Source: Symbiodinium sp. CCMP2592 (lineage: Eukaryota; Sar; Dinophyceae; Suessiales; Symbiodiniaceae). Taken from it: 64,000 nt of DNA. The translations under genes were made by a program, and so were the position numbers. The notes under the pieces were generated by a model, which was not told the origin of the DNA, searched no databases, and was given only the letters and a program-made list of their open reading frames with translations. Below, one piece after another: positions 3,526-31,487 of the stretch (its first letter is position 1; every line of letters starts with the position of its first letter). The stretch lies in assembly GCA_905221615.1 (NCBI GenBank), contig CAJNDT010000132.1:41001-105000 (forward strand), read 5' to 3'.

Positions 3526-5751
3526 ATGAGGCGCCGCTGGGCGGCCCAAGCAGCCCTGCGCAGAGTGGCAGAGCCCAGCAATGCATCCGAGGACCCTGCT
3601 TCAGAAGCACCGGCACCTACCTCGGACCTCGACCCAAGCTTTGAGATAGTGGATCTCACAGGGCCCAACGATCTGCACAGTTACTTTCCCCTCACTAGAA
3701 GGGGGCCTGCATCGAGTGAAGCTGGCAACGCCAGCATCAGTGACGTTGGGCTTGCCTCGCAAAGCAAAGCAGCACCGCCAGGCTTCATACCTCGCTCGAG
3801 CCCGCACGGCACGCTGCCGACAGTCGCGGACTTAGCAATCCCGCCGCCGCGGGTTGTGCACGGGCCCCCGCGTAGGGCACTGTTCCCAGCAATTACAGCA
3901 GAATCACCTTTGCCGGTTCCCCGAATAACAAAACGGTCGCGCTCGGCCTCGCCCCCTAGGCTTGGAGGCCTGACTGAACCAGAACGCCCCGCAATGCCGC
4001 GCAGCCTAGCTCGGTCCGAACCGGTGCAGACTAGCACACCTATTCAACCCATTTCGCAGCCGCCCACCCGCATTGCCCTCGCCCCGCCTGCTCTGCTTCT
4101 TCCGCCCAGACCGCATAAGGTACGGGCGGCCAGTGCCAGACAAGCTTCGGCGGCTCGGCACCAAGCATGTGGCGCTGCATGGTGCCAACTTGTGCTCAAG
4201 TTGGGCGCAGCCTCACTTCTTTGGGTCTCCTTACAGCCCTGCAAGGACCCGACTAAGCATTTCCTAGCGATTCTAGTGAACTTTCGGCCCAGCACTTTAG
4301 AACGCTACTTGAGGGATAGTTCGCTTTTTGTAATGTTCCTGCACAGTTCTGGCATTGCTTTCTCAGAGGTCGAGCTGGCACCACTGCTCGATTTTTTGGC
4401 AGCAGCCCGAGCCTCGCACGGCCAGGATAGAGAAGTACACCAAACTTCAGCCAGATCCGCCATTAAAGCCCTGAAGTCCATCGTACTGCATAGCCCAGTC
4501 ATCTCAGCATATTCTTTGCAAGGCACCTCGCAAGACCGCAAGGAGGCCCTTCCCATCCCCTGGGCCCTGGTGGTCGCATGGGAAATGTGTGTTTGTTGCT
4601 CAAGCACTAAGACCACTACCAAGCTTGCACTGGGGGCGGCACTGCTTGCACTGCACGGCAGTCTTCGATTTGGAGACCTGCAGCGCATTGATTTCGAATC
4701 GCTCTCCCTTTCCAGCACTGCCCTGCATGGTGTATGTTACGCCACGAAAACGACTAACAGAGGGCAGCCCTTCGCAGTGTCCCTGGCGGGGATCTCCGGA
4801 CGCAGTGCACAGTCCTGTTGGACGCTGCACTGGCTTGCTGCTGCCCTGCAACGCGAAGTACACCGTTTTTGGGCCCGGGGTGATGAGTTCGATTTCCTGT
4901 GGTGCAACGCTGCCCCGGAGCTAGATTCATTGCCGGATCTTTCCCCGTGCTCGTACGGCACGGCAATCCTTATCCTGCGGTGGGCGGCCACGCTGCCCTG
5001 GCTACCTCCAGGACAAGGTCTAAACAGCCTCGAAGCGCGCCAACTCACTCTGCACAGCTTAAAAAGCACGTGCCTGGCGGCAGCCGCACAGCTTAGGCTC
5101 AGCAAGGAAAATCGGCTCCTGCAAGGACATCATAGAGACTCAGCCGCACTCTACTCTCGCAACGACACGTTCGCCAGCATAGACGTGCAGCTTAGCATCG
5201 CTGACGCAATGGCGTCCGGCTGGCGCCCTGAGCGCAGCATAGCTAGAGGCGGACAAGCACCTGTGCCTGAGCCTCCTTTTGCTTTGCCGCCGGGGCCAGT
5301 GCTTCGCAAAGTGGATGCACAGCATCTCCTGTCAGGGCCTTGGTCCTGTTTTGTAACACGCCACGAGCATTTGCAAGCCCAGGCACAGCATAACGCACAC
5401 GCAGCTTCAGATGAAGTCGCGCCAACCCAGCTCACCCCCCCGGCATCGGGGTCCTCAGAGCCGCCTTGGATTGTGGTAGATGAGGAAGCAGCAATGGTCG
5501 AACAAGCCGCACTGCAGAGGGATGACAGCAGCGAAAGTCTCGCGGCCTCTTCAGTCTCGAGTGTGGAGCGGTACGCCTGCAACGGTGCATGGGGCCGGTG
5601 GCACGCACTGCGCGCCGACTCCATGAACGAATGCCCTCGCACCGCGTGCGGAATCAGGCTCAGCATAGCAGCACAGTTCTCTGACTCACCGCAAGGGGTC
5701 TTCTGCAGACGCAAGGCTTGTGTCGACCTGCACCGCACATCATTGGAGTGA
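3526..5751 (+). CDS. TE-1 tyrosine recombinase (YR)
   Basis: A 741-codon ORF from ATG 3526, predicted to integrate the circular cDNA intermediate by tyrosine-recombinase strand exchange. The N-terminal ~230 residues are Pro/Ser-rich and start MRRRWAAQA, like the TE-2 recombinase (NFRRRWSLQA). The catalytic core is in the middle. The first Arg lies in LHGSLRFGD (about residue 381), the second box is HSLKST (His about 510), then QGHH (about 535), and the nucleophile Tyr is in LYSR (about 543). The usual H-x-x-R box is H-x-x-K here and in TE-2. The last ~150 residues are Ser/Ala-rich. The frame is intact, so the protein may still be made, although the rest of TE-1 is decayed. Confidence 0.8.
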   Translation: MRRRWAAQAALRRVAEPSNASEDPASEAPAPTSDLDPSFEIVDLTGPNDLHSYFPLTRRGPASSEAGNASISDVGLASQSKAAPPGFIPRSSPHGTLPTVADLAIPPPRVVHGPPRRALFPAITAESPLPVPRITKRSRSASPPRLGGLTEPERPAMPRSLARSEPVQTSTPIQPISQPPTRIALAPPALLLPPRPHKVRAASARQASAARHQACGAAWCQLVLKLGAASLLWVSLQPCKDPTKHFLAILVNFRPSTLERYLRDSSLFVMFLHSSGIAFSEVELAPLLDFLAAARASHGQDREVHQTSARSAIKALKSIVLHSPVISAYSLQGTSQDRKEALPIPWALVVAWEMCVCCSSTKTTTKLALGAALLALHGSLRFGDLQRIDFESLSLSSTALHGVCYATKTTNRGQPFAVSLAGISGRSAQSCWTLHWLAAALQREVHRFWARGDEFDFLWCNAAPELDSLPDLSPCSYGTAILILRWAATLPWLPPGQGLNSLEARQLTLHSLKSTCLAAAAQLRLSKENRLLQGHHRDSAALYSRNDTFASIDVQLSIADAMASGWRPERSIARGGQAPVPEPPFALPPGPVLRKVDAQHLLSGPWSCFVTRHEHLQAQAQHNAHAASDEVAPTQLTPPASGSSEPPWIVVDEEAAMVEQAALQRDDSSESLAASSVSSVERYACNGAWGRWHALRADSMNECPRTACGIRLSIAAQFSDSPQGVFCRRKACVDLHRTSLE

Positions 5752-6555: not shown

Positions 6556-6776
6556 GTGTGCGTTCGCGCATGCGATGGCGTTGTCGTGTGCGGCGACAGC
6601 GAGCGACCTGCGTTTTGACGCGAGCGAAACCTTAGGCTCATACTCTTTCTTCCCTTCAAATTTTATCATTTAATTTTCGGCACTTGTGCTCGTCTTGCTT
6701 TCAACGTGCCTTTGTTCGTTGACATCCTCAGCATGACGAAGTTTTGGGCCCAAGGTCAGCCGAAAATTTCCGTTCA
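6556..6776 (+). repeat. TE-2 repeat A1 (left terminus)
   Basis: 221 bp starting GTGTGCGTTCGCGC, identical to 16699-16919 except for one visible base. It includes the ATG (6733) of the first TE-2 ORF, so A2 carries a headless copy of that start. Confidence 0.9.
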
Positions 6777-7365
6777 GCAACAGCGCCTCACTCAGCTTGA
6801 AGGGGCGCCTGAGTGCACTGACGGGCCCGATCTTCTGCATACCTTGTGTGCGCAGCAGCCCATGGACATGGCCCTGACCCGGCGAGCCGTCTGGATCCAT
6901 GTCAGTTTTGCATTGCATCGGCCGCAGATCTCTTCCCGCACTGCTGAGTTCGCTCATCGAGTCGCTTTCGACAAATTTTGTGAGGACATGCAGACACCGC
7001 AGGAACCGCTGGCCGAGCAGTTGGCCCGAGAAGCCTGGGCTCGCCATGACATCGACAACCTCGATGCTGCTTCTTTGACGCCTTCGGAATCTGGAGATGT
7101 CGGTGAAGAACGAGACCCTCACACCGTCTTCGCTGGTCTATCCGATGAACGCAAAGAAGCCTTGGCTGCCGGATCCAGCTGGGAGGCACCGACCAGAATC
7201 GTGCATCGTGCTCCCTCTGAGCCGCCGGCTACAGATTCGGACCGGGGTGGTTGCGCGGCCTCAGTGGCCGTCTCGATGACGTTGAGAGCTTTTGCGGGTC
7301 AATCATCGACCCCCGGTTCTCTCGTAGTCTTCATGCTCGCTTACTGCGAGTGGAGCGCCTGCTGA
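6733..7365 (+). CDS. TE-2 first accessory ORF, probably frameshifted near 7240
   Basis: Starts at ATG 6733 inside repeat A1 (MTKFWAQGQP). It has a Gln-rich segment, then EGAPECTD, a string shared with the first ORF of TE-1 (EGLPECTD). The middle is acidic and helical (AEQLAREAWARHDIDNLDAA). After about 7240 the frame loses protein character, while another frame reads well from about 7245 to 7500 (LSGRLDDVESFCGSII, then LLRVERLLNVPEHALAG), suggesting a one-base frameshift and an original product of ~260 residues. No family is recognised. It is the first gene after the terminus and is likely an accessory or Gag-related protein. Confidence 0.45.
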   Translation: MTKFWAQGQPKISVQQQRLTQLEGAPECTDGPDLLHTLCAQQPMDMALTRRAVWIHVSFALHRPQISSRTAEFAHRVAFDKFCEDMQTPQEPLAEQLAREAWARHDIDNLDAASLTPSESGDVGEERDPHTVFAGLSDERKEALAAGSSWEAPTRIVHRAPSEPPATDSDRGGCAASVAVSMTLRAFAGQSSTPGSLVVFMLAYCEWSAC

Positions 7366-7520
7366 ACGTCCCTGAGCACGCACTTGCTGGCGACCATATC
7401 ACACTGAGTGCACCGGATCTCTGGTCCAACCCTGAGAAATCCGGCCGTGCGCCTTTGCCTTTCAGTTTCAGTGCACGTTCCTGCGTGCGCTTGCACATGT
7501 GCTTGTGGTGAGCTGTCCTG

Positions 7521-8728
7521 TCTTGATCTGAGCGCCTTGCTTTCCGCCAATACTCTCAGCGGGGGATTCAAGCCCCATTGGCTTTGCTCGGTCGCCGCTC
7601 ACTTTCGAGGTTCGGATGTCTGCAATAAGTCCTTTTCTAGCTTTGCTTGAGCAGGCCAGATCTCTTGATGTACTGAGGTGGCCCATTTCTCAGCAACCCG
7701 GGCTGTTGAAATGTACTCCCGGTAAGCTGTCACTCAGCCCTTGTTGCAGGTTGCTGTCGACATCGTGAGCTTCAGGCCGCTCTTATCCTGGCAAGCCGGT
7801 GCCAGAGTGTGGCAAATCTTTCGGGAGGACGATCCGTCTGGTGACCGACGTCGTGGACTTCAGGCTGCCTTTCGCCCGGCAAACTGGTGCTGGGATGTGA
7901 CGAGACCAGTCTAGAAGGTCGGGTCCACCTGGCTCCGGCGACTTCCGCAGTCTGACTCTCAGCAGTTCCACTCCCAGCAAACTGGGCTGGGAATCGGCAT
8001 GACTGCTTTGCGGCAGGAGACAACTCTCCTGTTGAAGCCGCGATCTCCTCAGCAACCGGTCTGAGCGAGTCGTCCAGTTCGATGTTCCGAATCTCAGCAA
8101 ACAGGAGCTGGGAATCTTCGTCACTGCCCCGCGGCAGTTGGCGTTCTCCTGCCGAGCCGTGGGCTCCTCAGCAACTGGGTTGAGTGAGTCACCTGGCGTG
8201 GCGGTCTCGCAGGTCTAAGACCCTAGTCCTCCAGACTGCCAAGTCGTGGGCTCTTCAGCAACTGGGTTGAGCGAGTCACATGGCTTGGCGGTCTCGCAGG
8301 TCTGGGACTCTGGTTCTCTGGGCCGCTCGAAGGCCTCCGATGCCAGTTTGATCTGCGCGGTGTATCCGAGGTGTGCTGAAAGCTCACTTGCCAGGCTTTG
8401 ATACCAATCATGATATGCGTCGGCTCGCAGTGGCCGACTCAAGTTTCTTATCGTGCCTTATGCGACTTTCGTAGCCCTTTCAGGTCGGTGATCCATGCTT
8501 CGGCCCGTGATCTGCCTCATGTTGGACGCCTGCCGTGAGTACCGGGACTTGTTAGCTCCAGCCATAACTCGGTTCAGCACCAAAACGTGTGTGCCGTTGA
8601 GATGCTCCGGATTGCATTGTTTGCTACACTGCTTCCATTCGACAGCGGGGTTGCCAGCATCGCCTTGTTGTGCACAGGTTCCAGAGCTTAACTGCACAGT
8701 GTAGTCGATCGGTGTTCGCCCTAGCGAC
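7521..8728. other. TE-2 internal non-coding segment with degenerate repeats
   Basis: About 1.2 kb without a convincing ORF. From about 7790 to 8310 it contains decayed repeats built around CTCAGCAACTGGGTTGAG-like strings. Its role is unknown; it could be an internal promoter or packaging region (inference). Confidence 0.5.
8161..8307 (+). repeat. TE-2 tandem repeat, ~60 bp unit, 87 bp period
   Basis: The 60 bp at 8161-8220 recur at 8248-8307 with about six mismatches. Both contain CAGCAACTGGGTTGAG and GGCGGTCTCGCAGGTCT. More degenerate relatives lie upstream near 7970-8060. Confidence 0.7.
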
Positions 8729-9193
8729 ATGGACTCCTTGACTGATGAACAACGGGAGTACCTTGCCACACTGAATCGTCGTGGCCCGGCTAGGCTGCGT
8801 GGCGCCAGTCGCTCTCGCAGCCGCGACCGCCGTGCCATTGCTTCTTCGGCCGATGAGCGCTCTCGCCCTTGGCGTGCACCGAGTCCAATGCTGGTTCAAG
8901 GACCACCTCCTCTTGCGGAACAGGTGCGGCTCATACAGAGCAGTATTGAGATGATTGAGCGCCGCCTGACCAACCTTAACATTGGTCAAACGCAGCTGCT
9001 CATGGTGCTTGGACACCACCCAGACTTTGGGGTTCCGTTCGGGGCCATCGCTGAGTTTGTTGACACCATGAAGGCCACCGTTCAGGACATCAAGGCGTCG
9101 ATTGAGGATCTTCGCGCTAATTCTGCAGAGCAGTGCATGCTTCTTAGCAGCCGCCTTGACCGCCTCGAGGAACTGGTTCAGGCTCGCACGTGA
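8729..9193 (+). CDS. TE-2 Arg/Ser-rich coiled-coil protein
   Basis: A 154-codon ORF from ATG 8729. Residues ~20-50 are Arg/Ser-rich (RGASRSRSRDRR), like a nucleic-acid-binding or nuclear-targeting tail. Residues ~65-150 are a strong coiled-coil candidate with regular hydrophobic spacing (VRLIQSSIEMIERRL, VDTMKATVQDIKASIEDL, LSSRLDRLEELV). It ends 45 bp before the open frame of the recombinase. Position and style match the coiled-coil ORF of TE-1 (441-698). It may be a multimerising chaperone-like protein comparable to ORF1 proteins of other retroelements, which is inference. No database family is recognised. Confidence 0.55.
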   Translation: MDSLTDEQREYLATLNRRGPARLRGASRSRSRDRRAIASSADERSRPWRAPSPMLVQGPPPLAEQVRLIQSSIEMIERRLTNLNIGQTQLLMVLGHHPDFGVPFGAIAEFVDTMKATVQDIKASIEDLRANSAEQCMLLSSRLDRLEELVQART

Positions 9194-9337
9194 CTGGATC
9201 GCCTGGTGCCGACTTAGCTCTGTTGTGACAAAATGTGCCACTCAAACCTAAGTGAGGGTTGTCTAGGTGCCGGTGAAATTTCATGCAGCCTTTGCATTGT
9301 TGCCTTAGGGCCTGTTTTCTTCTCGAGACCGGGACCC

Positions 9338-11392
9338 ATGGTGAACTTCCGCCGCCGATGGAGTTTGCAGGCATCTCGAGCCTCTGAAGATGCTCGATCC
9401 CGGAGTCCTTCCGTTCGCATTGTTGAAGCAGCAGAGCGTGCTGATTCTCTCTTTGAGGAGCATTCACCTCTGCTTTCGGAAGATGCCAGATCCTGGAGTC
9501 CTTCCTTTTTCAATGCTGCATCGCGCGCCGGTTCTCCCCTTAGAGATCTGGCTGACAGCGACCACGGCCTAGATCCGGCCCCCGAACGCAGCTCGGGCTC
9601 CGATGGATGGGAACGTGTGGGATCTGCACTGCCTCAGGACCCTGGTCCGGTCCTGAGTTCCGAAGTTCAGCGAGCCGTGGTGTATCAACGTGATGTGTCC
9701 CTGCCGAAGCTTCCCTACGAACATGGCATTTGGGGCCTCGTCTTTGGGTCTCCTGCATCCCTGCCCACCACCCGTTTCCCTGCACCAGTTGGTCCACGGC
9801 CTCAACCGCTCCCCACCCCTCCCGACCCGTCCACGAATTCCCTAGAGCTCTCTTCTGCCGCAGCTCCCCCAGACATCAGCCTGGCCCGGATCAAAGCTGC
9901 CACTTTTCGTGTCACTGATGCGGCCCTTCGTGACCGTTGCTTGGTGCAGCTCAAGACTTTTTTGCTTCTTGACCCGTCGGCCACCAAGACCGGTATTCAG
10001 ATGACTACGTGCTTCGGCAAAATTTTGGAACCTGACCGAGCCCTCTTGGTTCTTCAGGACACGTTGCGGCCCAAGGCCACCGGCACCATCAGCAAACGCA
10101 CAGGCTCTCTCTGGCGCTTGGCTCACTACCTGGCCTCCGTGGACGGCCGCAGCCCCTTCATGGTTTCGGAGCCCCTTCTCTATGAGTATCTCTGCTCACT
10201 TCGTGAAGCTGACAGTGGTGCTACTTCCGGCGCCTCCGCTTTGGAGGCCTTGCGCTTCGCTGACGGTTTGTTTCGCTTCCAGCGGATCTCTCTGCGTGAG
10301 GTGGACAGCGCCCGCATTCGTGGTGTGGCGCATGCCATGTATGTTCGCAAACAAAAGCGCAAGCAAGCCCCTGCCTTGACTGTTCGTTCCATCCGCTTCC
10401 TGATGGCATGGTGCTGCGACCCGTCCCGGCCTCTGCATACGCGCATTATCTCTGGCCACCTTCTTGCGTGCATCTTTGCAGTCGCACGTTGGTCTGACTT
10501 GCGCTTCCTTGCCTTCTTCCGGGTGCTCTCTGACGACGAGTTCAGCATCTTCGAGTCCGCGACTTCCCAGCACAAGACCGCACACTCCAAGGAGGCCCAG
10601 GTCGAGCTCCTTCCATTCATTGGCTTAGGTCAGTGGCCGGGCTGTGAGTCATGGGCTGCGTGTCTTGCGACTCTTCGAGCCGAGTCCGACCTCTCGCAGG
10701 GCCTGCCATCCTGGAACGAACGCGAGCAGAAGTGGGCTCTCGGTGATCCCATGACTACTTCCGAGGCCACTGGATGGTTGCGGGAGATCCTCTCTCATGA
10801 GCTTGACCCCACCGATGTGCGGGCACTTCGTGCCCACTCCTGCAAAACCACCTTGTTGGCCTGGGCTGGCATGAGCCCTCTCTTCACTCGTGAAGAACGC
10901 ACATTGCTTGGACATCACATTGAGGCTTCTACTCGGTCGGCAACTACATACGACCGCCAGGCCATCATTCGTCTTCAGGCCAAGGTCTGGCACTTGCTGA
11001 TTTCCATCGACTCCGGCGAGTTGAGTCCTGATGCTGACGCTCTTGGCCGACTGCGTTCCATGGTGCAGGTGCATGCGCCCCGTCCAGCTTCTGCTCAGAC
11101 CTCCGCGGAGCCTGCATCTAGCTCTTCTTCCGATGATGAACCCGCCGGTCTTCCTGCACCGCTACATCGAGATCGAGTTCCCCTGCCGGCCGCCGCCTAC
11201 GAGTACGCCTGGCTTGTGCACTCTGTGAGCGGTATTGTCCATGTGCAGTCTCCCCACTCACCTGAGCGTCTGATGTGCGGCCGCTCCATTTCTTGCAATT
11301 TTGAGTGTGTTTCGCCAGCTGACCTTGATGTTGAGCAGACTGCATTTTGTGGCCAGTGCAGCGCCTCACGTGTGCTGTCCGCCGCTGCATGA
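9338..11392 (+). CDS. TE-2 tyrosine recombinase (YR)
   Basis: A 684-residue integrase candidate. I choose ATG 9338 (MVNFRRRWSLQA) because the same RRRW-xx-QA start occurs in the TE-1 recombinase. The frame is open ~100 bp further upstream but without an ATG that preserves this match. The N-terminal ~210 residues are Ser/Arg/Pro-rich. The catalytic region has Arg in VARWSDLRF (about residue 384), box 2 HSCKTT (His about 500), then TREERTLLGHH (His about 526) and Tyr in TTYDRQ (about 538). Box 2 has Lys where most family members have Arg. The C-terminal ~60 residues contain several Cys (MCGRSISCNFEC, FCGQC), perhaps a small metal site. Gag follows 124 bp downstream. Confidence 0.85.
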   Translation: MVNFRRRWSLQASRASEDARSRSPSVRIVEAAERADSLFEEHSPLLSEDARSWSPSFFNAASRAGSPLRDLADSDHGLDPAPERSSGSDGWERVGSALPQDPGPVLSSEVQRAVVYQRDVSLPKLPYEHGIWGLVFGSPASLPTTRFPAPVGPRPQPLPTPPDPSTNSLELSSAAAPPDISLARIKAATFRVTDAALRDRCLVQLKTFLLLDPSATKTGIQMTTCFGKILEPDRALLVLQDTLRPKATGTISKRTGSLWRLAHYLASVDGRSPFMVSEPLLYEYLCSLREADSGATSGASALEALRFADGLFRFQRISLREVDSARIRGVAHAMYVRKQKRKQAPALTVRSIRFLMAWCCDPSRPLHTRIISGHLLACIFAVARWSDLRFLAFFRVLSDDEFSIFESATSQHKTAHSKEAQVELLPFIGLGQWPGCESWAACLATLRAESDLSQGLPSWNEREQKWALGDPMTTSEATGWLREILSHELDPTDVRALRAHSCKTTLLAWAGMSPLFTREERTLLGHHIEASTRSATTYDRQAIIRLQAKVWHLLISIDSGELSPDADALGRLRSMVQVHAPRPASAQTSAEPASSSSSDDEPAGLPAPLHRDRVPLPAAAYEYAWLVHSVSGIVHVQSPHSPERLMCGRSISCNFECVSPADLDVEQTAFCGQCSASRVLSAAA

Positions 11393-11516
11393 CTGTGCCT
11401 TGCCGAGAAAATCGCTTTGTGCCTGCCTTGCCTAGACTTCGCATTTTGCCTCTGCCTCAGCTTGTGGTCTGTGCCTGCACCGAGTTACGGCTCACCACGG
11501 CAATTCAGACTGCGCC

Positions 11517-12758
11517 ATGGCCTTGGATTCTTCAGCTACTTTCGAGGCTCGCTGCCTAGAGCTCGGATTGGCCGCCACCTTTGTGCAAGAGCTGCATACC
11601 GGGGGCATTGACACGTATGCCTCTCTTGCCTTCTGTCAGCCACACCAGGCTAACAGTGGAATCGACGATGTTGCACTTATGCGTCATGTGGGCTCGCTCG
11701 TCTCTTCAGCTCTCTCGGCTCACCAGACCACTGCCTTGCGCCGCCTTGCGTTTGAGGCGCAGGCTCTGGCTCTGCAAGATCTGCGCAGCAAGCTTGAACG
11801 CACCTCAGATTCCGAGCCGAAAGTTCTTCCCTTACAGGAGAAACTTGAGCGCAGCTCTCGCCTACAGAATCGGCTCGTCGGGGTCACCTTCACAGATCAC
11901 AATCAGCCTGCGCATGCCCTGGTGGACAAGGCATCTCAGCAGTTCGATGAGGGCGTCCTTCAATACCTGCAGCTCAACAAGTGCATCAGCCGTTACCAAG
12001 AGGCCCTTGCTGAACGCTCTTCCGCCTCTCTGCGCTTCGGCTCGGATGGTGCCATCAAGGTGTCGCGGGAGTCCGCGGGTGGTGAATGCGATATCTCCAC
12101 TGCCCACCTCCTTCGTGCCGCTTTTCAGCGGCGGGCCATGGCTTACGACATCGCGGGTGTTGCCACCTACGAGGCTCTGGATGCCTGGGCCCAGAATCTC
12201 TTTGATCGTCTTTCGACTCCTGTGCCGTCCAGTCGTTACTCTCCTATTGGCCTCGAGCAGATTTTGGCAGCTGACAAAGCCCTTTGGGTTCGCTTGTCTC
12301 AGCTCAGTCGTGGGCTTCTGGGCCGCAGTGACGCCGCCACCGGTGCCTTGCTGGTTGACAATTTGATTCTGGATTTGAGCAACCACCCCGAGGTCGTCTG
12401 GCATTTCCTCCCGCTGGCGAATGCTTCTCACACCCCACCTCCCAAGCCTCATGCTGCACAGGCTGCCCGCAAGCGCAAACGCCAGCGTGCCTCCTCTGCT
12501 CCACCTGTGCCTGCTGCGTCACCGGGTCGAACCCCTGCGAAGGGCCCAGGCAAAGGCTCCCGCGCCGGCTCTCGCATCCAAGTGCCTGATGGCTGCACCA
12601 TTCGTTTTTCCAAGGGCCCCATTTGCATGAAGTACAACCTGGGGACCTGCCGCGCTTCTCATGTGAAGCCTGGCGCTCGTTGCAGCAACGGCTACCACGT
12701 GTGCTGGAAAATCGGATGCCACCGCCATAAGCCGGCCTGCGAGTGCAGCCACTCGTGA
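11517..12758 (+). CDS. TE-2 Gag-like protein with C-terminal zinc finger
   Basis: A 413-codon ORF from ATG 11517, the likely structural protein of the retrotransposon particle. Residues 1-~310 are helical and resemble the TE-1 Gag fragments (compare DISTAHLLRAAFQRRAMA with HLRLSTAWSGRIQTVFRNA). A basic Lys/Arg/Pro linker follows (ARKRKRQRASSAPP). The last ~45 residues are a Cys/His finger (ICMKYNLGTCR, then CSNGYHVCWKIGCHRHKPAC), a CCCH-like RNA-binding module. It ends in TGA immediately followed by CTA, and the Pol frame continues in phase, so a Gag-Pol fusion by stop-codon read-through is plausible. Confidence 0.8.
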   Translation: MALDSSATFEARCLELGLAATFVQELHTGGIDTYASLAFCQPHQANSGIDDVALMRHVGSLVSSALSAHQTTALRRLAFEAQALALQDLRSKLERTSDSEPKVLPLQEKLERSSRLQNRLVGVTFTDHNQPAHALVDKASQQFDEGVLQYLQLNKCISRYQEALAERSSASLRFGSDGAIKVSRESAGGECDISTAHLLRAAFQRRAMAYDIAGVATYEALDAWAQNLFDRLSTPVPSSRYSPIGLEQILAADKALWVRLSQLSRGLLGRSDAATGALLVDNLILDLSNHPEVVWHFLPLANASHTPPPKPHAAQAARKRKRQRASSAPPVPAASPGRTPAKGPGKGSRAGSRIQVPDGCTIRFSKGPICMKYNLGTCRASHVKPGARCSNGYHVCWKIGCHRHKPACECSHS

Positions 12759-12764
12759 CTACAC
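12753..12764 (+). promoter_or_regulatory. Candidate stop-codon read-through site (UGA CUA) between TE-2 Gag and Pol
   Basis: Gag ends at TGA 12756-12758, followed by CTAC. Pol is in exactly the same frame, with no other stop between. UGA followed by CUA is the best-documented leaky context in eukaryotic and viral mRNAs. The first in-frame ATG of Pol is only at 12852, so read-through would produce the Pol N-terminus without its own start. Confidence 0.55.
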
Positions 12765-15700
12765 GAGCCTTTGCAGACCGGCGATTTTGTCTCGCCGCCC
12801 CACGCCGGTCACCCTGCTGAGCTATTTGCGGCCCGCTTTGCCAACTCTGTTATGACTGCCGAGCAAGCCTATCAGCTTTTTGAACTTTTGCCTGCTGAGA
12901 CTCCGGCTCGTGCTGCATCTATGCTGCCTCAGTCAAAGTCTTTTACCACTGGAGCCTTTGCATACTCCAGCGGACCCGGCTTGCGTCGCCACACCCATGT
13001 TTTCCCTTTGGCGACCAAGGCCCTTGCCGATTTTGTGCGAGCTACCTGTGGCACGCACTTTTTCTCCAGCATTGCTATATTCCGCGATTTGACTGCTCCC
13101 CTGCATTTGGACGCCCTTAACCAGCCGTCCCAACCCAACCTGCTCATCCCTCTCACGGCATTTTCAGGTGGAGGCGTGTGGTATGAGTCCCCCTCCGGCA
13201 CTTCTCATCGCCTCTTGGACGGTGTCGTGACGCCTGGTTGTGTGCTTGATGTGGCCTCCGGGCCCGTCTTCCTTCCTGCTGCCGAGGCGCGTCATCAAAC
13301 GCTCCCTTGGGAGGGCACTCGCTGCGTTCTGGTTGCCTTCACTTCTCTTGACGCGCACACCCTGTGCCCCGCCGATCTCGACACTCTAAGTCGCGCCGGC
13401 TTCTCTTGTGGCGCACCTGGCATGCCAAACGCTCTGCCTCCTGTCCCGCAAACCAGCCTGCGACCCATGGCGGTCGAACTTTGCGCCGGCTCGGCCTCCC
13501 TGTCGGCCGCTCTTCGCGCTGCTGGCTTCGCCACCTTGGCGGTCGACCACCACTGGAATACGCATTCTCCGCAGCACTCCATCTGCCAGCTGGATCTCAG
13601 CTGCCCCCAGCAACAGGCTCTCTTGCTCCGATGGATGCGCACACAGCCGCTTGCACATGTGCACCTCGGCCTCCCCTGTGGCACTTGTTCGCGGGCCCGC
13701 GAACGTGCTCTGCCTCACGGTGTGCCTGGGCCCGCCCCGCGGCCTTTGCGTAATCTGCTCCACCCCCTAGGCCTCCCTAACCTCACCCCTGCCGAACACC
13801 GCCGCGTCTGCCAGGCCAATGCCGTCTTCTGGTTCGCTTTGGACGTCCTGGAGCTTGCCGCCAGCATGGGTGCCACCGTCAGCCTCGAGAACCCTTCTCG
13901 ATCCTGGCTATGGTCAGCGCTACGTGCCATGGCCGAGGAATCCCAGCGTGTGCATCTCCTCGCCCAGCTCGAAGAATGCATCTTTGACTCTTGCATGCAC
14001 GGCGGCCGCCGCAAGAAGAGCACCAAGATCTTAGGATCCCCCGGCCTTTTCAGCAGCCTCCGGGCCTCTTGCGACTCCTCACACACCCATGCGCCGTGGA
14101 CCGTTGACCCGACTGCCAGCGGGCCGCGCTTCGCCACTGCCGAGGAAGCGCAGTACCCTCGCTTGCTTTGTTTGCGCATGGCGCAGGCTCTAGCCGCGCG
14201 TCACCAGCTCCCCGAGCCTGTGCCTACTGCTTCCGCCAGTCTATCTCAGAGCGTCCGCCGCGGCTCTCGCCCGCTCATCCCCGAGTTCTACGAGTGTGCC
14301 CGGGTGCCTGCCGCCTCCACTCTGCAGCCCCACGAGCGCGTGCTGTCTTCTTTGCCATCGGGGGTACCAATCTCCCAAGACAGCATCCCTGAGTCTTCTT
14401 CCACTGCATGCGTCAACATCGGCCGACAGTGGAACCCTCAAGACTACTTGAATTTAGCCAAGCAGACCGAACATCCGAGGAATCCTGGCCAAGTTCTCCC
14501 AACGGTGCTGAAAGATGCCGTGGACACGGTGTTGACAACCGACCCGGTCGACACAGCAAAACGGCGTCTGCAGGCTGTGATAACCATCAAGCAGCTAGCC
14601 AAAGAGCTTGAGGGGAAAGAAGACGAGTTCAAATCGTCCCTGGACCCAGACGTGGCAAGCATCCTCAGTCCCAAGAAACTTTGCCTCTGGAAGGCCCTCC
14701 TCAAGGCTTCCGACTTCGATGATTGCGAGATCGTTGACTTGATGGCTAGAGGCATTCCTCTTGTTGGGACGCATGGGCCCGTCCCCAATCTAGAACCCGG
14801 AGGAGAGCCTTCCTCGGACTCACCGGACAACCTTCTTGCGTCGGCTCCTCTCAGGCGTGAAGCCATGATTCAGTCTCGTAAGATCCCCAGTGACCAGCAT
14901 CAGAACGACCTTGTCTCGGCCTCCATGGAAGAGGTCAGCAGGGGCGATCTGAAAGGCCCCCTCACGGAGAGCGATGCCCACCAGCACTTCGGTTCCGAGC
15001 ATTGGTTACTCAACCCCAGGTTCCCGATTTACCAGGGAGTTAGTCTTAAGCTTAGGGTTATAGACGACGCCAAGGCATCAGGTTTAAACTCTGCCTTCTC
15101 CCCGTCGTACAAAGTCAAGCTGATGGACATTGACGTCTTAGCCTGCCTAGTAGCCCACGTGGCCTCAGGCCTGCACTTGGGGCACTGTGACGGGAACCCG
15201 GTACACCATCTCGTGGCCTCGTCAGAGTGGGAAGGAGGCACGCTTGACTTGGCCCGAGCATACAAGCAAGTACCGATTGACCCGGCCTCGAGGCCCTTCT
15301 GTGTCGTGGGCTTCCCGACCTCGGAAGGGTGGCAGTACTACAGGTCGGACGTGTTTCCATTCGGCTCCAACGCCTCGGTGTACGCGTTCCTGAGGATCCC
15401 ACGTGCGTTGCACCATGTGTTGGTCAAGTTCCTCGCCGCACTTACCACGGTATTCTACGACGACTTTCCCATCATAGAACCGGCCATGGGAGCTCCGGTC
15501 CTGAAATCTGCGGTATCGGCCGTCCTCGACTGCTTGGGATGGGCCCATTCCAAAGACGGCGACAAAGCCCTGCAATTCGCCGGCTCGTTCGTCGCCCTCG
15601 GGGTCTTGGTCGATCTGAGGGGAATTCGGTCCGCCAAATTCCGCCTATCGAACAAGCCAGGCAGAATCGACAGGCTAGTCGAGATGATCCAGCAGTTCAG

Positions 15701-16454
15701 CGACGAGGGGCGCGTCGACTCCGGACGGCTCTCGATTCTGCAAGGTCACTTGAACTTCGCCGCCGGGTTCTACATGGCCAAGGGACTACGCTTCCTGTCC
15801 AAGGAATTTGCCAAGTTGCTGGATGGGCGTCGTTCCACATCCGAGATCAGAGCTCTGTGCAGGCTTGCCATAGCTCTTCTTCGGGGGACTCCTGAGCGCG
15901 AGTTTGACTTGGCCGTCACTGGGCAGCCTGTCATCATTTTCACTGACGGGTCCTGGGAAGGGGGCAGGGCAGGCGCCGGCGGAGTCGTTTTCGACCCAGC
16001 CACAGAAGCCACCCAAGTCTTCGAACTGGAAGTTCCGGGTGAGCTCCTTGCGGCATGGCAACAGCAGGTGGGCACTCAGCTCATCTGCCAGATCGAAGCT
16101 TACGCTGCAATATCTGCTAGATACCTCCTCCGACATGTCATCCGAGATCGCCTCGCGGTCATGTGGATCGACAACGAAGCATCGAGGGTAGCTCTCTCCA
16201 AGGGGACCGCGGACTCCGAGTCTCTGAGAGCCATGGCCAGGGTCATGCAGTCCATCGAGATCTCTCACCCTTCGGTGCTATGGTACGAGAGAGTTTGCTC
16301 CTTCAGCAACCCTGCGGACATGCCGTCCAGGGGGGATGCAGAGGCTGCAGCCCGCCTCTTCGGTGGCAGAGTCGTTGACCTCGGCTCAGATGGACCTGTC
16401 AGGGACGCGATCCTCCTTGCTGTAAGAGATCCCTACGCCAACCTGGTGGTGTAG
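12759..16454 (+). CDS. TE-2 Pol: dioxygenase-like, C5-methyltransferase-like, reverse transcriptase and RNase H
   Basis: About 1,230 codons in phase with Gag; first ATG at 12852. Numbering from 12771: residues ~65-215 resemble a 2-oxoglutarate/Fe(II) oxygenase fold, with His112-x-Asp114, distal His175 and Arg184 in GTRCVLVAF. Residues ~234-480 resemble a C5-cytosine methyltransferase: ELCAGSASLSAALRAAGF (motif I, ~236), LPCGT with Cys303 (motif IV), SLENP (motif VI, ~372), and GGRRKKST (~411). RT follows: VIDDAK (~764), LDLARAYKQV with Asp826, FPFGSNASVYAF, and FYDDF (Asp897-Asp898). RNase H has Asp1059 (TDGSW), Glu1109, Asp1134 and Asp1183 (NPADMPSR). All catalytic residues are present. TE-1 Pol lacks the first two domains. 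The enzyme-fold assignments of those two are inferences from motifs. Confidence 0.8.
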   Translation, partial: LHEPLQTGDFVSPPHAGHPAELFAARFANSVMTAEQAYQLFELLPAETPARAASMLPQSKSFTTGAFAYSSGPGLRRHTHVFPLATKALADFVRATCGTHFFSSIAIFRDLTAPLHLDALNQPSQPNLLIPLTAFSGGGVWYESPSGTSHRLLDGVVTPGCVLDVASGPVFLPAAEARHQTLPWEGTRCVLVAFTSLDAHTLCPADLDTLSRAGFSCGAPGMPNALPPVPQTSLRPMAVELCAGSASLSAALRAAGFATLAVDHHWNTHSPQHSICQLDLSCPQQQALLLRWMRTQPLAHVHLGLPCGTCSRARERALPHGVPGPAPRPLRNLLHPLGLPNLTPAEHRRVCQANAVFWFALDVLELAASMGATVSLENPSRSWLWSALRAMAEESQRVHLLAQLEECIFDSCMHGGRRKKSTKILGSPGLFSSLRASCDSSHTHAPWTVDPTASGPRFATAEEAQYPRLLCLRMAQALAARHQLPEPVPTASASLSQSVRRGSRPLIPEFYECARVPAASTLQPHERVLSSLPSGVPISQDSIPESSSTACVNIGRQWNPQDYLNLAKQTEHPRNPGQVLPTVLKDAVDTVLTTDPVDTAKRRLQAVITIKQLAKELEGKEDEFKSSLDPDVASILSPKKLCLWKALLKASDFDDCEIVDLMARGIPLVGTHGPVPNLEPGGEPSSDSPDNLLASAPLRREAMIQSRKIPSDQHQNDLVSASMEEVSRGDLKGPLTESDAHQHFGSEHWLLNPRFPIYQGVSLKLRVIDDAKASGLNSAFSPSYKVKLMDIDVLACLVAHVASGLHLGHCDGNPVHHLVASSEWEGGTLDLARAYKQVPIDPASRPFCVVGFPTSEGWQYYRSDVFPFGSNASVYAFLRIPRALHHVLVKFLAALTTVFYDDFPIIEPAMGAPVLKSAVSAVLDCLGWAHSKDGDKALQFAGSFVALGVLVDLRGIRSAKFRLSNKPGRIDRLVEMIQQFSDEGRVDSGRLSILQGHLNFAAGFYMAKGLRFLSKEFAKLLDGRRSTSEIRALCRLAIALLRGTPEREFDLAVTGQPVIIFTDGSWEGGRAGAGGVVFDPATEATQVFELEVPGELLAAWQQQVGTQLICQIEAYAAISARYLLRHVIRDRLAVMWIDNEASRVALSKGTADSESLRAMARVMQSIEISHPSVLWYERVCSFSNPADMPSRGDAEAAARLFGGRVVDLGSDGPVRDAILLAVRDPYANLVV

Positions 16455-16484
16455 GGGTGAGGGCAGACGTGCTTCCAAACAGGG

Positions 16485-16698
16485 GACATCATCCGCACGT
16501 CGATCGCCCCAGCAGTCAAAACATCAGTCCGAGGGAAGTGTACGTGCGAGTGACTGTCTGTGTTGACCTCTTAACTTCGCAAACATATTTGATTGGAGAA
16601 ACACATATCATCATTTATACATACATATATTTGGATTCGGCCAAATACTCGGCCAAATACCTTTTGAGTGTGAGCCGACGGTTTTCGTCGCAAGCGAC
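16485..16698 (+). repeat. TE-2 repeat B1
   Basis: 214 bp (GACATCATCCGCACG ... GCAAGCGAC), the same as 17030-17243. It abuts A2 exactly at 16698/16699. Confidence 0.9.
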
Positions 16699-16919
16699 GT
16701 GTGCGTTCGCGCATGCGATGGCGTTGTCGTGTGCGGCGACAGCGAGCGACCTGCGTTTTGACGCGAGCGAAACCTTAGGCTCATACTCTTTCTTCCCTTC
16801 AAACTTTATCATTTAATTTTCGGCACTTGTGCTCGTCTTGCTTTCAACGTGCCTTTGTTCGTTGACATCCTCAGCATGACGAAGTTTTGGGCCCAAGGTC
16901 AGCCGAAAATTTCCGTTCA
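16699..16919 (+). repeat. TE-2 repeat A2
   Basis: An internal copy of the left terminus (6556-6776). It is followed by a 110 bp unique spacer (16920-17029) before B2. Confidence 0.9.
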
Positions 16920-17029
16920 CCCGCCCACCACAGCCCTCGGTCACTGTCGTCATAAACTGGCTATGACCCGTGCCCTGGTAGCACGAACTTCTTTTCACCT
17001 AGGCCAACTGGGTGCCTAGCCCATCCGTC

Positions 17030-17243
17030 GACATCATCCGCACGTCGATCGCCCCAGCAGTCAAAACATCAGTCCGAGGGAAGTGTACGTGCGAGTGACT
17101 GTCTGTGTTGACCTCTTAACTTCGCAAACATATTTGATTGGAGAAACACATATCATCATTTATACATACATATATTTGGATTCGGCCAAATACTCGGCCA
17201 AATACCTTTTGAGTGTGAGCCGACGGTTTTCGTCGCAAGCGAC
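17030..17243 (+). repeat. TE-2 repeat B2 (right terminus)
   Basis: The terminal copy of B1. The next base (17244) resumes the TE-1 Gag frame. Confidence 0.9.
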
Positions 17244-18081: not shown

Positions 18082-19728
18082 TCTCCGCATCAGAGCACTC
18101 TGATAGCTCCGACACAGACTCTAGCAAAAGCCCTGCCCCTGACGGCCCCGTTAGACCCCGGTTTCTCCTTAGGTTTCACGGTTCGGGTTTCGCACTGCCC
18201 TCGTCACAAAAAGTTCATAGACACGCTTGCAGCGCAGTCTCCTGACTCCCACCGCGCTTTCGACCCGGCGCTGCTGGCGCAACTGCACACGCTCTGCTGG
18301 TCAGGACTAGTGGGTCTGGCCTTCTTCCTCTTTGCTTTTCCTCAGTTAACGCCGGAAGGGCACGCAGAAGCCCGGGCCCTCCTCCGCGCAGCGCATCTGC
18401 AAGGAGCACAGGTTGTGTTCCTCTTCCCGACGCAATGCCCCGAGGAAGAAGAAACCGCATACGTGCATCTCTGCCAAGAACTTGCGGTGCACTGCACCCT
18501 ATCAGATGTTTTCAGCCCTGGCTCTCAGCACTTAGTTTGTTGCTCGGATTCTTCCTGCGGAAGCCTTGCACCGAGCTCAGCATCGAAGTCGCTAGAACGC
18601 CTTTTGGCACGTAACTGCTCTGCAACGGGCATAAAAGATGCCAGCCCGGACTCGACACAAAAGCACCTGCCTCAGTGCTTTCTCCCACGACGCCCGGCCA
18701 CCTGCGACGGTGCAGGAATGTTTAGCAGTGCTAGTGCTGATCACTCGGCAAACAACGTCAGCAGCAAGGTTCAGCCCCTGGCTGCCCTGTCTCTCGCCTT
18801 CAAGCGTTTCCTACAAGAGCACGGTCTTGTGCGCCGCATTGCAAAGCACCTGCAAGAATCTGCTCCAGACAACCCTCTTTCTTTAGAGCACGGCCTTGTG
18901 TTGACAGAATTTGTGCGCCTGCATCTCGCACCGGATGCTGATCCACAGTCTTTCGCTTCCATAGAACCGGGACAGCCATTCCGCTTGCAGGTACTGCAGA
19001 GCCTCGCCCGCGCAATCGGCGATAAAGATCACGCCCTGCCAGGCATTCTCGCAGAGGGCGTCCCTACCGGAGCTTTTGATCCACTGCCCAGCAGCGGCCA
19101 ATGGATAGCTGCCCAACCCGGGGTAGACTCTCCTGACGATCTTACGGGCCCGGCACTGGAGCACTGCACGGGCAACTGGACTCGAGCTGAGCAAAACCCC
19201 GAGATCCTAGAGCAGCTTATCGCTAAGGAAATAGAAAACGGCTGGGTTCGCAAATTCGAGGGCTCTCTCGAAGATGCCGCTAAACACTGGCCAGCAGGCA
19301 CAGCAGTGGGTAAACTTAACTTGGTTTTCGCGGACGGCAAAGATCCGCGCATAGTCCTCGACAGCTCCGTCTGTGGGCTTAATGGTTGCGTGCGTTTGCC
19401 AGAAAGGGTTTCGTTACCTACATCTAGTGACGTGCATCGTTCCTTCCTCTCGGAAGACTGCTTCGCACAGCTGCGAGCAGTTTGCATCGATTTCAAGGCA
19501 GCACACAAGTGTTGCAAAGTGCTGCCCAGAGATCAAGGCACGCTTCTCTTTACGCACGGTGACGCACTGTATTACTACACAGTTTTTTTTTTCGGCGCAC
19601 GTTTCTCAGCATACTGGTGGCAAAGCACAGGCGCACTTATACTGCGCTGCCTGCACGCCTTGCTTTGCAAGCATCCGCACCGGGCATGGCTCTATGTGGA
19701 TGATCTCCTTTTGCTCCTTAAGCACTGA
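18082..19728 (+). pseudogene. TE-1 Pol, reverse transcriptase N-terminal part (frame broken at 19726)
   Basis: The frame opens after TAG 18079-18081 and has no good ATG. Upstream, another frame (to 18245) carries a Pro/Ser-rich linker, so a frameshift separates Gag and Pol. Residues up to ~18750 (for example CPRHKKFIDTLAAQSPDSHRAF) are of unknown function; no dioxygenase- or methyltransferase-like motifs are seen, unlike TE-2. RT fingers and palm follow: KLNLVF, RIVLDSSVCGLNG, VCIDFKAAHKCCKV (motif A, Asp codon 19489), FFFGARFSAYWWQSTGAL (motif B) and LYVDDLLLLL (motif C, 19690-19713). The frame then meets TGA where a small inversion begins, so the RT thumb is not in phase. Confidence 0.7.
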
Positions 19729-19971
19729 GCGAGGTGGCCCAGTTGAGCAAACCAAGGCAAGCTTCTAGAGCCTTGCGAGGCACTTTAGCAGTGCTGTGCA
19801 GTTCTCGCAGTTGCGCGCGGAGCTTGAGAAGTTTATTCTGGACCAGCTCCACGGTTTCTGTGCGAAAGCAGAACTTCCAACCGCACCAGGTGGCGGTGTC
19901 AGAAAACTGTGCTTTTTTCCAGCTGACTGGTGCGTTCAGTGCTGCTAACAATGCGACTAGCAGAGCTGCTC
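19727..19971 (-). other. Inverted ~245 bp segment carrying the RT thumb region of TE-1
   Basis: Read on the minus strand, 19968 down to ~19730 encodes LLVALLAALNAPVSWKKAQF, then WCGWKF and LGLLNWATSL, which are the residues expected directly after the YVDD motif of a DIRS-type RT. Plus-strand coding stops at 19728 and resumes at ~19975 with LAPLYKDLHSAK. The simplest explanation is inversion of this segment in place. A GAGC at 19727-19730 and its complement GCTC at 19968-19971 mark likely breakpoints. Inverting it back puts the thumb in phase with YVDD apart from one TGA codon. Confidence 0.75.
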
Positions 19972-20917
19972 CTGTTTCAGACTGGCTCCGCTGTACAAGG
20001 ATCTCCACTCAGCCAAAGGCACACTGCATAGCATCGCCCCTGCAGCATGGAGCAATTTCTTTGATTGCCTGGACGACTCAGCAAAGCTCAGCCGCACTCC
20101 TCCGGGCAGTTGGCTGCCACGCAACGCACAGCTCCTTGAAGTAGGCAGCATTAAAGTGCACAGCAAAAAGGACGTGGCCCGCGTCCCGCCCTCTCACAAA
20201 CATCAATGGGTACGTTTAGCGGATCCTTCCCGGCAGGAGATACACCTGCGCCAAGAAAGTAAATTTGTGCTGCACTGGCTAAGCCTCTGCTTTGCCCACG
20301 AACAGCCCCGGTCGCTCCGCACGGCTCCTTTGCTGCACTGCATGTCAGCCGCAGACGCATTTGCAGATAAGGACCGTATGGGCATTGGCGGCTGGCTCAG
20401 CACCGCATCTTCTTTTGTCTGGTTCAGTGAACTCTTTGACGCAGCACAGGTACGAGCGGAGTGGCCACAACTTGTTGGCAGCCTTCAGCCTTACATAGGC
20501 TGTTTCGAAACGTTGGCACATCTGGCATTGGCGCACTGCTCCTGGCAACTGCTACGGTCCCGTCATGCACGGTTCGTCCTGCCATCGGCTAGTGATAATA
20601 CTAGCGCCGAATCGGGTTTAAATAAACTCTTTAGCACTGCAGAGCCACTTGGCACCTTTCTTCGCCTAGCAGCGACCTGGGCACATCTGCACCGCGTGCA
20701 GTTCCAAGTTGAGCACCTCGCAGGTGAGAAAAATAACTGGGCCGATGCACTGTCACGCGGCCGCATCGCTTTTGTCCAGCATCGCATAGCGGATCGTGTA
20801 CGCATTACACTTTCGCAGCTGGCCTCCGCTTCGCACAGCGTCACAGCTCACGGAGACACCTCCGACTGGCCAAAGCGCCTAGGCCTAGTTGAAGCCACGC
20901 ACGCAATGCTTCGCTAA
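19972..20917 (+). CDS. TE-1 Pol, RT connection and RNase H
   Basis: The C-terminal part of TE-1 Pol after the inverted segment, open to TAA 20915-20917. It begins with LAPLYKDLHSAKG (RT connection region). RNase H follows, of the type found with DIRS-like RTs: SAADAFADKDRMGIGGW (first Asp), CFETLAHLALAH (Glu), SASDNTSAESGLNKL (Asp) and HLAGEKNNWADALSRG (last Asp). All four acidic positions are present. Possible small frame defects lie near 19985-19990. This piece has no own start and depends on the broken upstream RT, so no functional enzyme is expected from this copy. Confidence 0.7.
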
Positions 20918-21248: not shown

Positions 21249-21349
21249 TGGGGGCTACGCATCGTGTCTCGCACGGCACAGACTTAATAGCTCGCCACGC
21301 TTGGCACGGACAATGCAACCTCTGCCGTGAAAAAAGAGTGAGTGCGCCG

Positions 21350-21447
<98 letters not shown>

Positions 21448-21475
21448 GCGCTTACATGTAACCGTCATAGAGAAC
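21249..21475 (+). repeat. TE-1 repeat B1 with internal (CT)n
   Basis: 227 bp beginning TGGGGGCTACGCATCG, containing a ~93 bp CT run (about 21353-21445) and ending CATAGAGAAC. It is repeated at 21647-21889. Confidence 0.85.
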
Positions 21476-21628
21476 GCTCGCTGTGCGTTTGTATTTTCAG
21501 TCAGCAGTGTTTTCTATGTGTGTTGTCATGTTAAGCACCGCGCCGCTCTGGTTGCTCAAACAACAGACGCAACATAGAAACACAGCTGTACGGGCCGCGT
21601 CCCCGCATGCATACAAAAAACTTTTTCA
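21475..21628 (+). repeat. TE-1 repeat A2
   Basis: An internal copy of 224-377. It abuts or overlaps B1 by the shared AC dinucleotide. Confidence 0.85.
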
Positions 21629-21646: not shown

Positions 21647-21889
<243 letters not shown>

Positions 21890-29000: not shown

Positions 29001-29569
29001 ACCGCATGAACATGCTTCTCTTCGACGGTGCTTACATCACGTGTGATAATCTGGAAGCGGAGACCTTGATCCTAGAGGCTTGCCAGCTTTGTGCAGACAC
29101 AGCCATTCCCTTAACAGTGAGGTCATGGCCTACCCAGTTGCCTTTGACATTGCCTCGTCGTGCACTTCGGGACAATTTGAGTGTGGTCAAGCCTGATGCC
29201 CAGATAATCTTGAACTACAAAAATTGCTTGATCAACACCATAGCCACACTATGCCCTGCGTGTGATGTGGGTGCATTTTCGGATCAGGAAGAGCCATTGT
29301 CAGCGAGAATGTTCAATGCGACCCGTCTGTTCGACTCCCAGCGCCCTGTCAGCGAAGGATACCGTTTGGTTCACATTTGCAAGGAAGACATCCTTACTCC
29401 GTCAGACTCTTCACTTGTGTGGTTTGGACATCATCCTCTTCAAGAGGGGCATGGTCACTGGTTTGGCGCCACTCAACATGAGAACGTTGTCACTGTGATT
29501 GACACAACTGCAGGCCGCAGTTTTTTTGGAATTGGACACTGCGGCTTGGCAGTCTCTTGTAGAATGTGA
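26049..29569 (+). CDS. Large SF3 (D5-like) helicase protein with possible papain-like C-terminal domain
   Basis: The main frame runs from 26195 to 29569 (1,124 codons). A preceding frame with ATG 26049 (MAGDSTPDDMELQLEHL) probably holds the N-terminus, joined by a frameshift or small intron at ~26190-26260. Numbering from 26195: FHYDDGAWV near residue 130 resembles the motif ahead of D5-type helicases. Walker A is GKGGDGKG (~354-361), the Walker B-like segment IRIQEME (~403-409), and motif C LNFENIP (Asn ~455). These are hallmarks of superfamily 3 helicases. Near the end, NYKNCLINTIATL (Cys ~1011), GHGHWFGATQ (His ~1088) and VTVIDTT (Asp ~1102) suggest a Cys-His-Asp peptidase fold. Likely a replication/unwinding factor of the transposon. 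The role and the peptidase call are inference. Confidence 0.65.
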
Positions 29570-31394: not shown

Positions 31395-31487
31395 CCTCCA
31401 GAACAAAGATTTCTCCTTTCCACATTCGAGATAAGAGCTTGCTTTTATTACGAAATTTTCTGCCGGTCTTGCGAGTGATAAGTCTTT

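Follow-up and report, generated by a model that had tools for sequence, protein, structure and literature searches.

The window analysed here is a stretch of 64,000 nucleotides (nt) of the dinoflagellate Symbiodinium sp. CCMP2592 (GenBank assembly GCA_905221615.1, contig CAJNDT010000132.1, positions 41,001 to 105,000, forward strand). The elements in it are of a kind that fits a dinoflagellate host; a search of the window for the spliced-leader sequence gave no match. The forward-strand open reading frame (ORF) at 12759–16454 of this window is the Pol of a 10.7-kb retrotransposon of the DIRS (tyrosine-recombinase) type, which spans positions 6556–17243. By its sequence, this Pol is headed by a domain resembling the 2-oxoglutarate/Fe(II) (2OG/Fe(II)) oxygenases of the TET/JBP family, followed by a domain resembling DNA methyltransferases (DNMT). 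The explanation we favour, at a probability of roughly 0.55, is that the oxygenase oxidises bases of the element's complementary DNA (cDNA) before integration. Here, activity, substrate and timing are what we infer.

The frame is open over 1231 codons and joins an oxygenase-like domain, a DNMT-like domain, a linker, a reverse transcriptase (RT) and an RNase H-like part. This fusion, and the motifs that go with it, had been proposed in a first-pass annotation of the window, and all of them were located in the frame. The oxygenase domain (residues 41–220, positions 12879–13418) is supported by conservation; its family leaning comes from relatives, not from this copy. It holds the HxD...H...R residues His116 (13104), Asp118 (13110), His179 (13293) and Arg188 (13320), counted from 12759, which are identical to the residues previously numbered His112, Asp114, His175 and Arg184. 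The DNMT-like domain (residues 230–490, 13446–14228) contains motif I (ELCAGSAS), motif IV (PCGT, with Cys307 at 13677) and motif VI (LENP, with ENP from 13887). The RT core (residues 781–1000, 15099–15758) carries FYDD and matches Pfam RVT_1 at E 1.9e-4, under the curated cut-off of that family; RVT_1 is matched in all five Pols of the subfamily. The RNase H-like domain (residues 1050–1231, 15906–16451, with TDGSWE and IDNEA) is conserved in the subfamily alignment and named by motif, as it has no Pfam match.

Ligand residues that vary between copies had been set beforehand as a point against an oxygenase. His116, Asp118, Asn121, His179 and Arg188 show no variation in any of the 26 aligned domains, nor in the 25 of an earlier alignment. 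These 26 rows comprise the window Pol, L019, L021, L024, L025, 20 places picked for diversity, and L057, and they include near-duplicates such as L041 and L052. Excluded were L002–L008 (same family as the window Pol), L022, L026 and L027 (close copies), L020 and L023 (broken frames), L028 (no oxygenase domain), and L032, which has the same ligands and is represented by L033. The four ligand residues are likewise invariant in the five subfamily Pols, at 33–45% identity, and in all 18 domains of a further alignment (A5), at 25–42% identity to the window domain. Alignment A5 has 13 invariant columns, including all four ligands. By hand arithmetic, the chance that four given positions out of 226 all fall invariant is about 7 in a million.

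Purifying selection acts strongly on the oxygenase domain, at a level comparable to that on RT. Across eight intact copies, the ratio of non-synonymous to synonymous differences (pN/pS) is lowest for RT (0.059), followed by the oxygenase (0.079), RNase H (0.080) and the DNMT-like domain (0.198), and residues 1–40 reach 0.79. With a shared insertion removed, the seven separate insertions give 0.085 for the oxygenase (bootstrap 0.034–0.164), 0.057 for RT (0.021–0.114), 0.077 for RNase H and 0.198 for the DNMT-like domain (0.107–0.325). A comparison within another subfamily (L025 vs L026) yields 0.11, 0.12 and 0.04 for oxygenase, DNMT-like domain and RT, respectively, and the pair L021/L022 yields 1.00 for the oxygenase, on few changes. 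Between subfamilies pN/pS is uninformative, as synonymous sites are near saturation.

Tet_JBP (PF12851) is the sole Pfam family that recurs for the oxygenase domain, with matches in 3 of 18 domains (L019, E 9.7e-6; L039, E 0.12; L040, E 0.11). A scan of the whole genome (1.1 Gb, 5383 contigs; 150 of 155 candidates scored) displays 30 Tet_JBP matches at E ≤0.01, the best at 2.2e-4, all of which fall within profile positions 73–162. Their open frames measure 1140–1340 amino acids (aa) in 17 cases (12 of them 1283 or 1285 aa), 826–848 aa in nine and 350–550 aa in four. The same scan found no match in 14 control genomes. In the Symbiodinium genome it returned no TET/JBP gene stronger than the Pol-type matches, and intron-split genes could escape it. 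Control scans with AlkB (PF13532; 20 of 20 candidates scored) and 2OG-FeII_Oxy_3 (PF13640; 37 of 37) gave 13 and 29 matches, with longest frames of 517 and 690 aa, none of them Pol-sized. Pol-sized frames were thus picked out by TET/JBP and by neither of the other oxygenase profiles scanned. The base-oxidising family suggested in the first-pass annotation is the one that fits, at scores below the Pfam cut-off. Searches of phage records with one oxygenase domain returned two matches (E 6 and 8), and searches of PHROGs and NCBIfam gave weak or irrelevant matches only.

The domain is widespread in the genome. Searches with two oxygenase domains produced at least 138 and at least 150 rows, one for every candidate scored among 4712 and 4944. 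The second search shows about 147 places or more, as three places are split into two rows each. Oxygenase-bearing DIRS-type Pols occur in two domain orders. In addition, a frame of 2542 aa on C4001 is a Copia Pol with rve (E 5e-6, under cut-off), then the oxygenase, then RVT_2 (E 7.2e-12, over cut-off). At least ten places, C4001 included, match the C4001 oxygenase at ≥93% across 233 or more of its 245 residues, in frames of 394–3525 aa; the Copia domains were examined at C4001. In a FastTree tree with many weak deeper nodes, the Copia oxygenase domains cluster with L057 (support 0.99, 47% identity), called DIRS-like from its RT. Because of this grouping, the domain has probably been passed between the two superfamilies. 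The absence of both domains from a relative had earlier been taken to mean acquired cargo. This view is unsupported: the oxygenase is common to DIRS-type Pols that have diverged deeply and come in two domain orders, and to a Copia Pol. Frames of 2542–3525 aa holding an oxygenase were also seen at C3402, C5096, C5218 and C313 besides the Copia-like C4001. On the same contig, about 5 kb before the window begins, a 1320-aa frame holds a further oxygenase match (C132:35528–36151).

The DNMT-like domain is likely a diverged DNMT-type fold, judging from its profile matches. The best match in the PDB is DNMT2 (4h0n, E 0.14); the alignment runs from motif I through the SPPC of motif IV, and the remaining three PDB matches are methyltransferases as well. 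The L019 domain has weak matches to PHROG DNA methyltransferases (E 0.053 and 0.17). DNA_methylase (PF00145) is matched by none of 12 DNMT-like domains at E 10; the other Pfam families found, Methyltransf_31 (E 0.015) and DUF1846_C (E 0.13), match one domain each. Viral contigs searched with the DNMT-like and whole-Pol alignments contained no relative. Among 25 sampled Pols, the DNMT-like domain follows the oxygenase in 14 and does not in nine; the other two are L050, a Copia-type Pol, and L049, counted as Copia-type because it is 96% identical to L050. The motif IV Cys is kept in 5 of these 14 Pols, the window's included, and replaced by A, S, V or T in the other nine. The Glu of ENP is kept in nine of the 14; both residues were counted by eye. 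Within the family of the window Pol, the Cys is present in 7 of 7 copies. Since DNA_methylase is not matched and the catalytic Cys is replaced in 9 of 14 sampled Pols, methylation, while plausible for the window's family, would be doubtful for the group. Of the two activities suggested for this element in the first-pass annotation, base oxidation would rest on a TET/JBP-like domain under purifying selection, and base methylation is the weaker part.

Complete loss of the DNMT-like domain was considered for the nine sampled Pols without it after the oxygenase. It was rejected for the C3124 element (L043), the one of the nine that was looked at upstream, whose DNMT-like domain (SPPY, EAP) sits ahead of the oxygenase. 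A genome scan with PF00145 (123 of 1338 candidates scored) gave at least 125 rows, none of which coincides with the listed Pol places. PF00145-type methylases live beside the oxygenase-bearing elements. Some of the PF00145 matches lie in frames of 1204–1224 aa (C1473, C3223 and C5004), which are perhaps of the SymbioDIRS-Dnmt3 type.

5-Hydroxymethyluracil (5-hmU) is carried in bulk by dinoflagellate genomes, and Copia elements make their cDNA before insertion. DIRS elements, too, complete their cDNA before insertion (PMC5890265). Action on cDNA appears to be the simplest reading because the ligands do not change, because Pol handles cDNA, and because two superfamilies that complete cDNA before integration carry the domain. 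The oxygenase would act on newly made cDNA that is still bound by Pol and has yet to be inserted by the recombinase. The most likely reaction would be conversion of thymine to 5-hmU, whereby the cDNA would come to resemble host DNA; oxidation of 5-methylcytosine (5mC) would be the second choice. For TET_JBP proteins, three kinds of activity are known, including that of the ascorbate-using CMD1 (PMC11065753). According to a published proposal, DIRS cDNA undergoes methylation and may thereby escape recognition as foreign (de Mendoza et al., 2018; PMC5890265). A disguise by 5-hmU would fit our data better than one by methylation, since the oxygenase ligands persist where the methylase motifs decay. 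The DNMT-like domain may be active in lineages that keep the Cys, the window's among them, and is elsewhere probably a binding or structural remnant. In Breviolum, 5-hmU is enriched over certain repeats (PMC11071213).

Several points weigh against this explanation. At E 1, 15 of 18 oxygenase domains are without a Tet_JBP match, and the window domain has none even at E 10; the oxygenase domain of the C692 element has none either. Every Tet_JBP match in the genome lies under the curated cut-off (best 29.6 vs 34.9 bits), so we call the domain TET/JBP-like and do not file it as a member of the family. Among the 30 matches, one Pol was read (C1125, which is L019), and the rest were assigned by frame length. 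Structure prediction had been set in the first-pass annotation as the check for a double-stranded beta helix and a Rossmann methyltransferase fold. AlphaFold, run on each of the two domains alone with the window sequence as sole input, reached mean pLDDT values of 34.7 for the oxygenase and 36.6 for the DNMT-like domain, and the models were discarded as unusable. Oxygenase profiles searched against the PDB gave two irrelevant matches, then none, and no oxygenase structure was matched. The domain may also be dispensable, as an outer element that encloses the one under study displays no oxygenase by eye in the three broken forward frames of its Pol region. Moreover, we know of no enzyme that makes 5-hmU in dinoflagellates. 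Finally, the Breviolum repeats singled out for 5-hmU are Maverick elements, and DIRS elements are not named among them (PMC11071213).

Alternatively, the oxygenase may oxidise 5mC that stems from the host or from the element's own DNMT-like domain. Like TET in other systems, it would thereby relieve the element, or the site where it lands, of silencing. This is possible but doubtful in our view. It would agree with the TET/JBP leaning of the profile matches, with the coupling of a DNMT-like domain to the oxygenase in one frame, and with the methylation of CG by SymbioDIRS-Dnmt3 enzymes (PMC5890265). However, the oxygenase ligands are kept in the 9 of 14 Pols whose DNMT-like domain has lost the Cys, and also in the Copia Pol, where no DNMT-like domain was seen by eye. 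Hence, the pairing of the two domains is not obligatory.

Another explanation is that the Pol belongs to a SymbioDIRS-Dnmt3 type already known since 2018, whose N-terminus went unnoticed. Both kinds of element are of the DIRS superfamily, with the arrangement A-coding-B-A-B and a separate tyrosine recombinase ORF, here a recombinase-like one (de Mendoza et al., 2018; PMC5890265). Both hold a cytosine-methylase domain (here DNMT-like) in a Pol with RT, and both come in more than one domain order, the two Pol layouts of that report facing two orders in this genome (PMC5890265). On the other hand, DNMT genes were counted there by PF00145 and the SymbioDIRS-Dnmt3 methylase is of the PF00145/Dnmt3 kind, whereas the profile recognises none of the 12 domains from our Pols. 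The main text of PMC5890265 does not contain the words dioxygenase or TET, whereas the window Pol has an oxygenase-like domain. The lack of overlap between PF00145 rows and Pol places, a weak point with 123 of 1338 candidates scored, goes in the same direction. We regard this identity as unlikely.

It appears somewhat less likely still that the oxygenase acts on RNA or damaged nucleic acid, by AlkB-like demethylation of genomic RNA or repair of cDNA. Its location in Pol, which handles RNA and cDNA alike, would suit such a role, but none of the 13 places found with the AlkB profile is Pol-sized, and the TET/JBP profile does find Pol-sized frames. It is very improbable that both domains are catalytically dead and merely help to build Pol or to bind nucleic acid. 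Such a role would match the frequent loss of Cys and ENP in the DNMT-like domain, but the metal and 2OG ligands of the oxygenase are invariant in all 26 rows, which nucleic-acid binding alone would not demand. Preference thus stays with oxidation of cDNA bases before integration.

The element that carries this Pol lies on the forward strand and has the order A-ORFs-B-A-B, i.e. split direct repeats, as found in a repeat search of the window. The left terminal repeat A1 (6556–6776, 221 nt) is 100% identical to A2 (16699–16919, 221 nt) in the repeat search and 99.5% by blastn. B1 (16485–16698, 214 nt) is 100% identical to B2 (17030–17243, 214 nt), the right end of the element. In the seven copies whose end was located (L001 and L003–L008), B2 terminates on the identical base and the flanks differ, except for L004 and L005, which have a common flank and thus are probably one insertion. 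The right-end block B-A-spacer-B is also present in copies L002–L008. In the right flank of L003, telomere-like CCCTAAACC bases follow immediately after the insertion. Split repeats were found, too, in a distant relative, the C3124 element.

Three ORFs precede Pol. The first (8729–9193) is small (154 aa), has no assigned function and shows 93.5–96.1% identity in four other copies. The second (9233–11392, 719 aa) is tyrosine-recombinase-like, with RWSD, HSCK, GHH and Y motifs and no Pfam match. HSxK, GHH and Y are common to all nine aligned recombinase-like ORFs (window and other families); the Arg motif is present wherever an ORF reaches it, three of the nine ending before it. The third (11517–12758, 413 aa) is Gag-like, named by position and by a Cys/His cluster at its C-terminus. 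Relatives of it, at 31–48% identity, precede Pol in L019, L021 and L023–L027. In L028 (C3646), the Gag-like part and Pol are fused into one frame of 1387 aa. Pol residues 1–283, comprising the oxygenase and the first part of the DNMT-like domain, are missing from this frame, and the A2 repeat of L028 is internally deleted. Another copy of the element has inserted into the pol of a distantly related element on contig C692, itself oxygenase-bearing. A search for the exact empty site found no exact match in a relative of the C692 element; the protein of L033, a relative of the disrupted element, reads through the insertion place.

The element is itself enclosed by the outer element mentioned above (223–21843, forward strand), which is of the same general type and has split repeats of its own: A1 (223–377), B1 (21249–21445), A2 (21474–21628) and B2 (21647–21843), all from the repeat search. 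Its B repeats are a 100% identical pair and contain a long CT/GA-type microsatellite. Its recombinase-like ORF (3526–5751) is among those aligned, and its RT/RNase H-like pieces (18310–20917) were named by eye and have no Pfam match. Further downstream, a 385-aa ORF (31439–32596) resembles by eye the RNase H end of Pols of the L043/L057 type and may thus be a remnant of a further element with an oxygenase.

Two long ORFs of 1124 and 494 aa lie at 26195–30983 of the window. The former, with a P-loop-like GKGGDGKG, resembles a D5/SF3-type helicase by its motifs; the latter has Cys/His motifs reminiscent of KDZ-type transposases. A KDZ-type transposon close to TET/JBP-like genes would echo fungi, where TET/JBP expansions were reportedly linked by Iyer et al. 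in 2014 to a class of DNA transposons, as separate genes. Fungi and Symbiodinium would share TET/JBP-family oxygenases that spread with mobile elements. They would differ in that the fungal ones go with DNA transposons as separate genes, whereas those of Symbiodinium lie inside retrotransposon Pols. With the family at large, the Pol domain shares the HxD...H...R core (profile positions 73–162), but it scores below the curated cut-off and is fused to a retrotransposon Pol.

DIRS Pols that bear a methylase are already known (PMC5890265). DIRS elements with a Dam-like adenine methylase are likewise tyrosine-recombinase retrotransposons carrying a DNA-modifying domain; their methylase, however, is of unrelated structure, and no oxygenase is mentioned in these descriptions (PMC5890265, PMC6338049). 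No retrotransposon Pol with an oxygenase turned up in our searches of the open-licence literature of PubMed Central. If our explanation is true, this would be, within that literature, the first base-oxidising enzyme inside a retrotransposon Pol.

The oxygenase-bearing Pols, with about 147 places or more in one genome, are a testable set of candidate enzymes for the making or use of 5-hmU in dinoflagellates. These candidates are carried by repeats, the class of DNA that is enriched for 5-hmU in Breviolum (PMC11071213). As a tentative and rather speculative extension, a TET/JBP-type oxygenase of thymine (or 5mC) might be a standard and old part of Pol in dinoflagellate retrotransposons. It might have passed between DIRS and Copia elements, write 5-hmU into cDNA, which would let the cDNA pass for the host's own, and thereby be one source of the 5-hmU in these repeat-rich genomes. 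Its occurrence in two superfamilies suggests that the activity may pay. Whatever the substrate, retroelements of this dinoflagellate carry methylase-like and oxidase-like modules, and it is the oxidase-like active site that is kept more faithfully.

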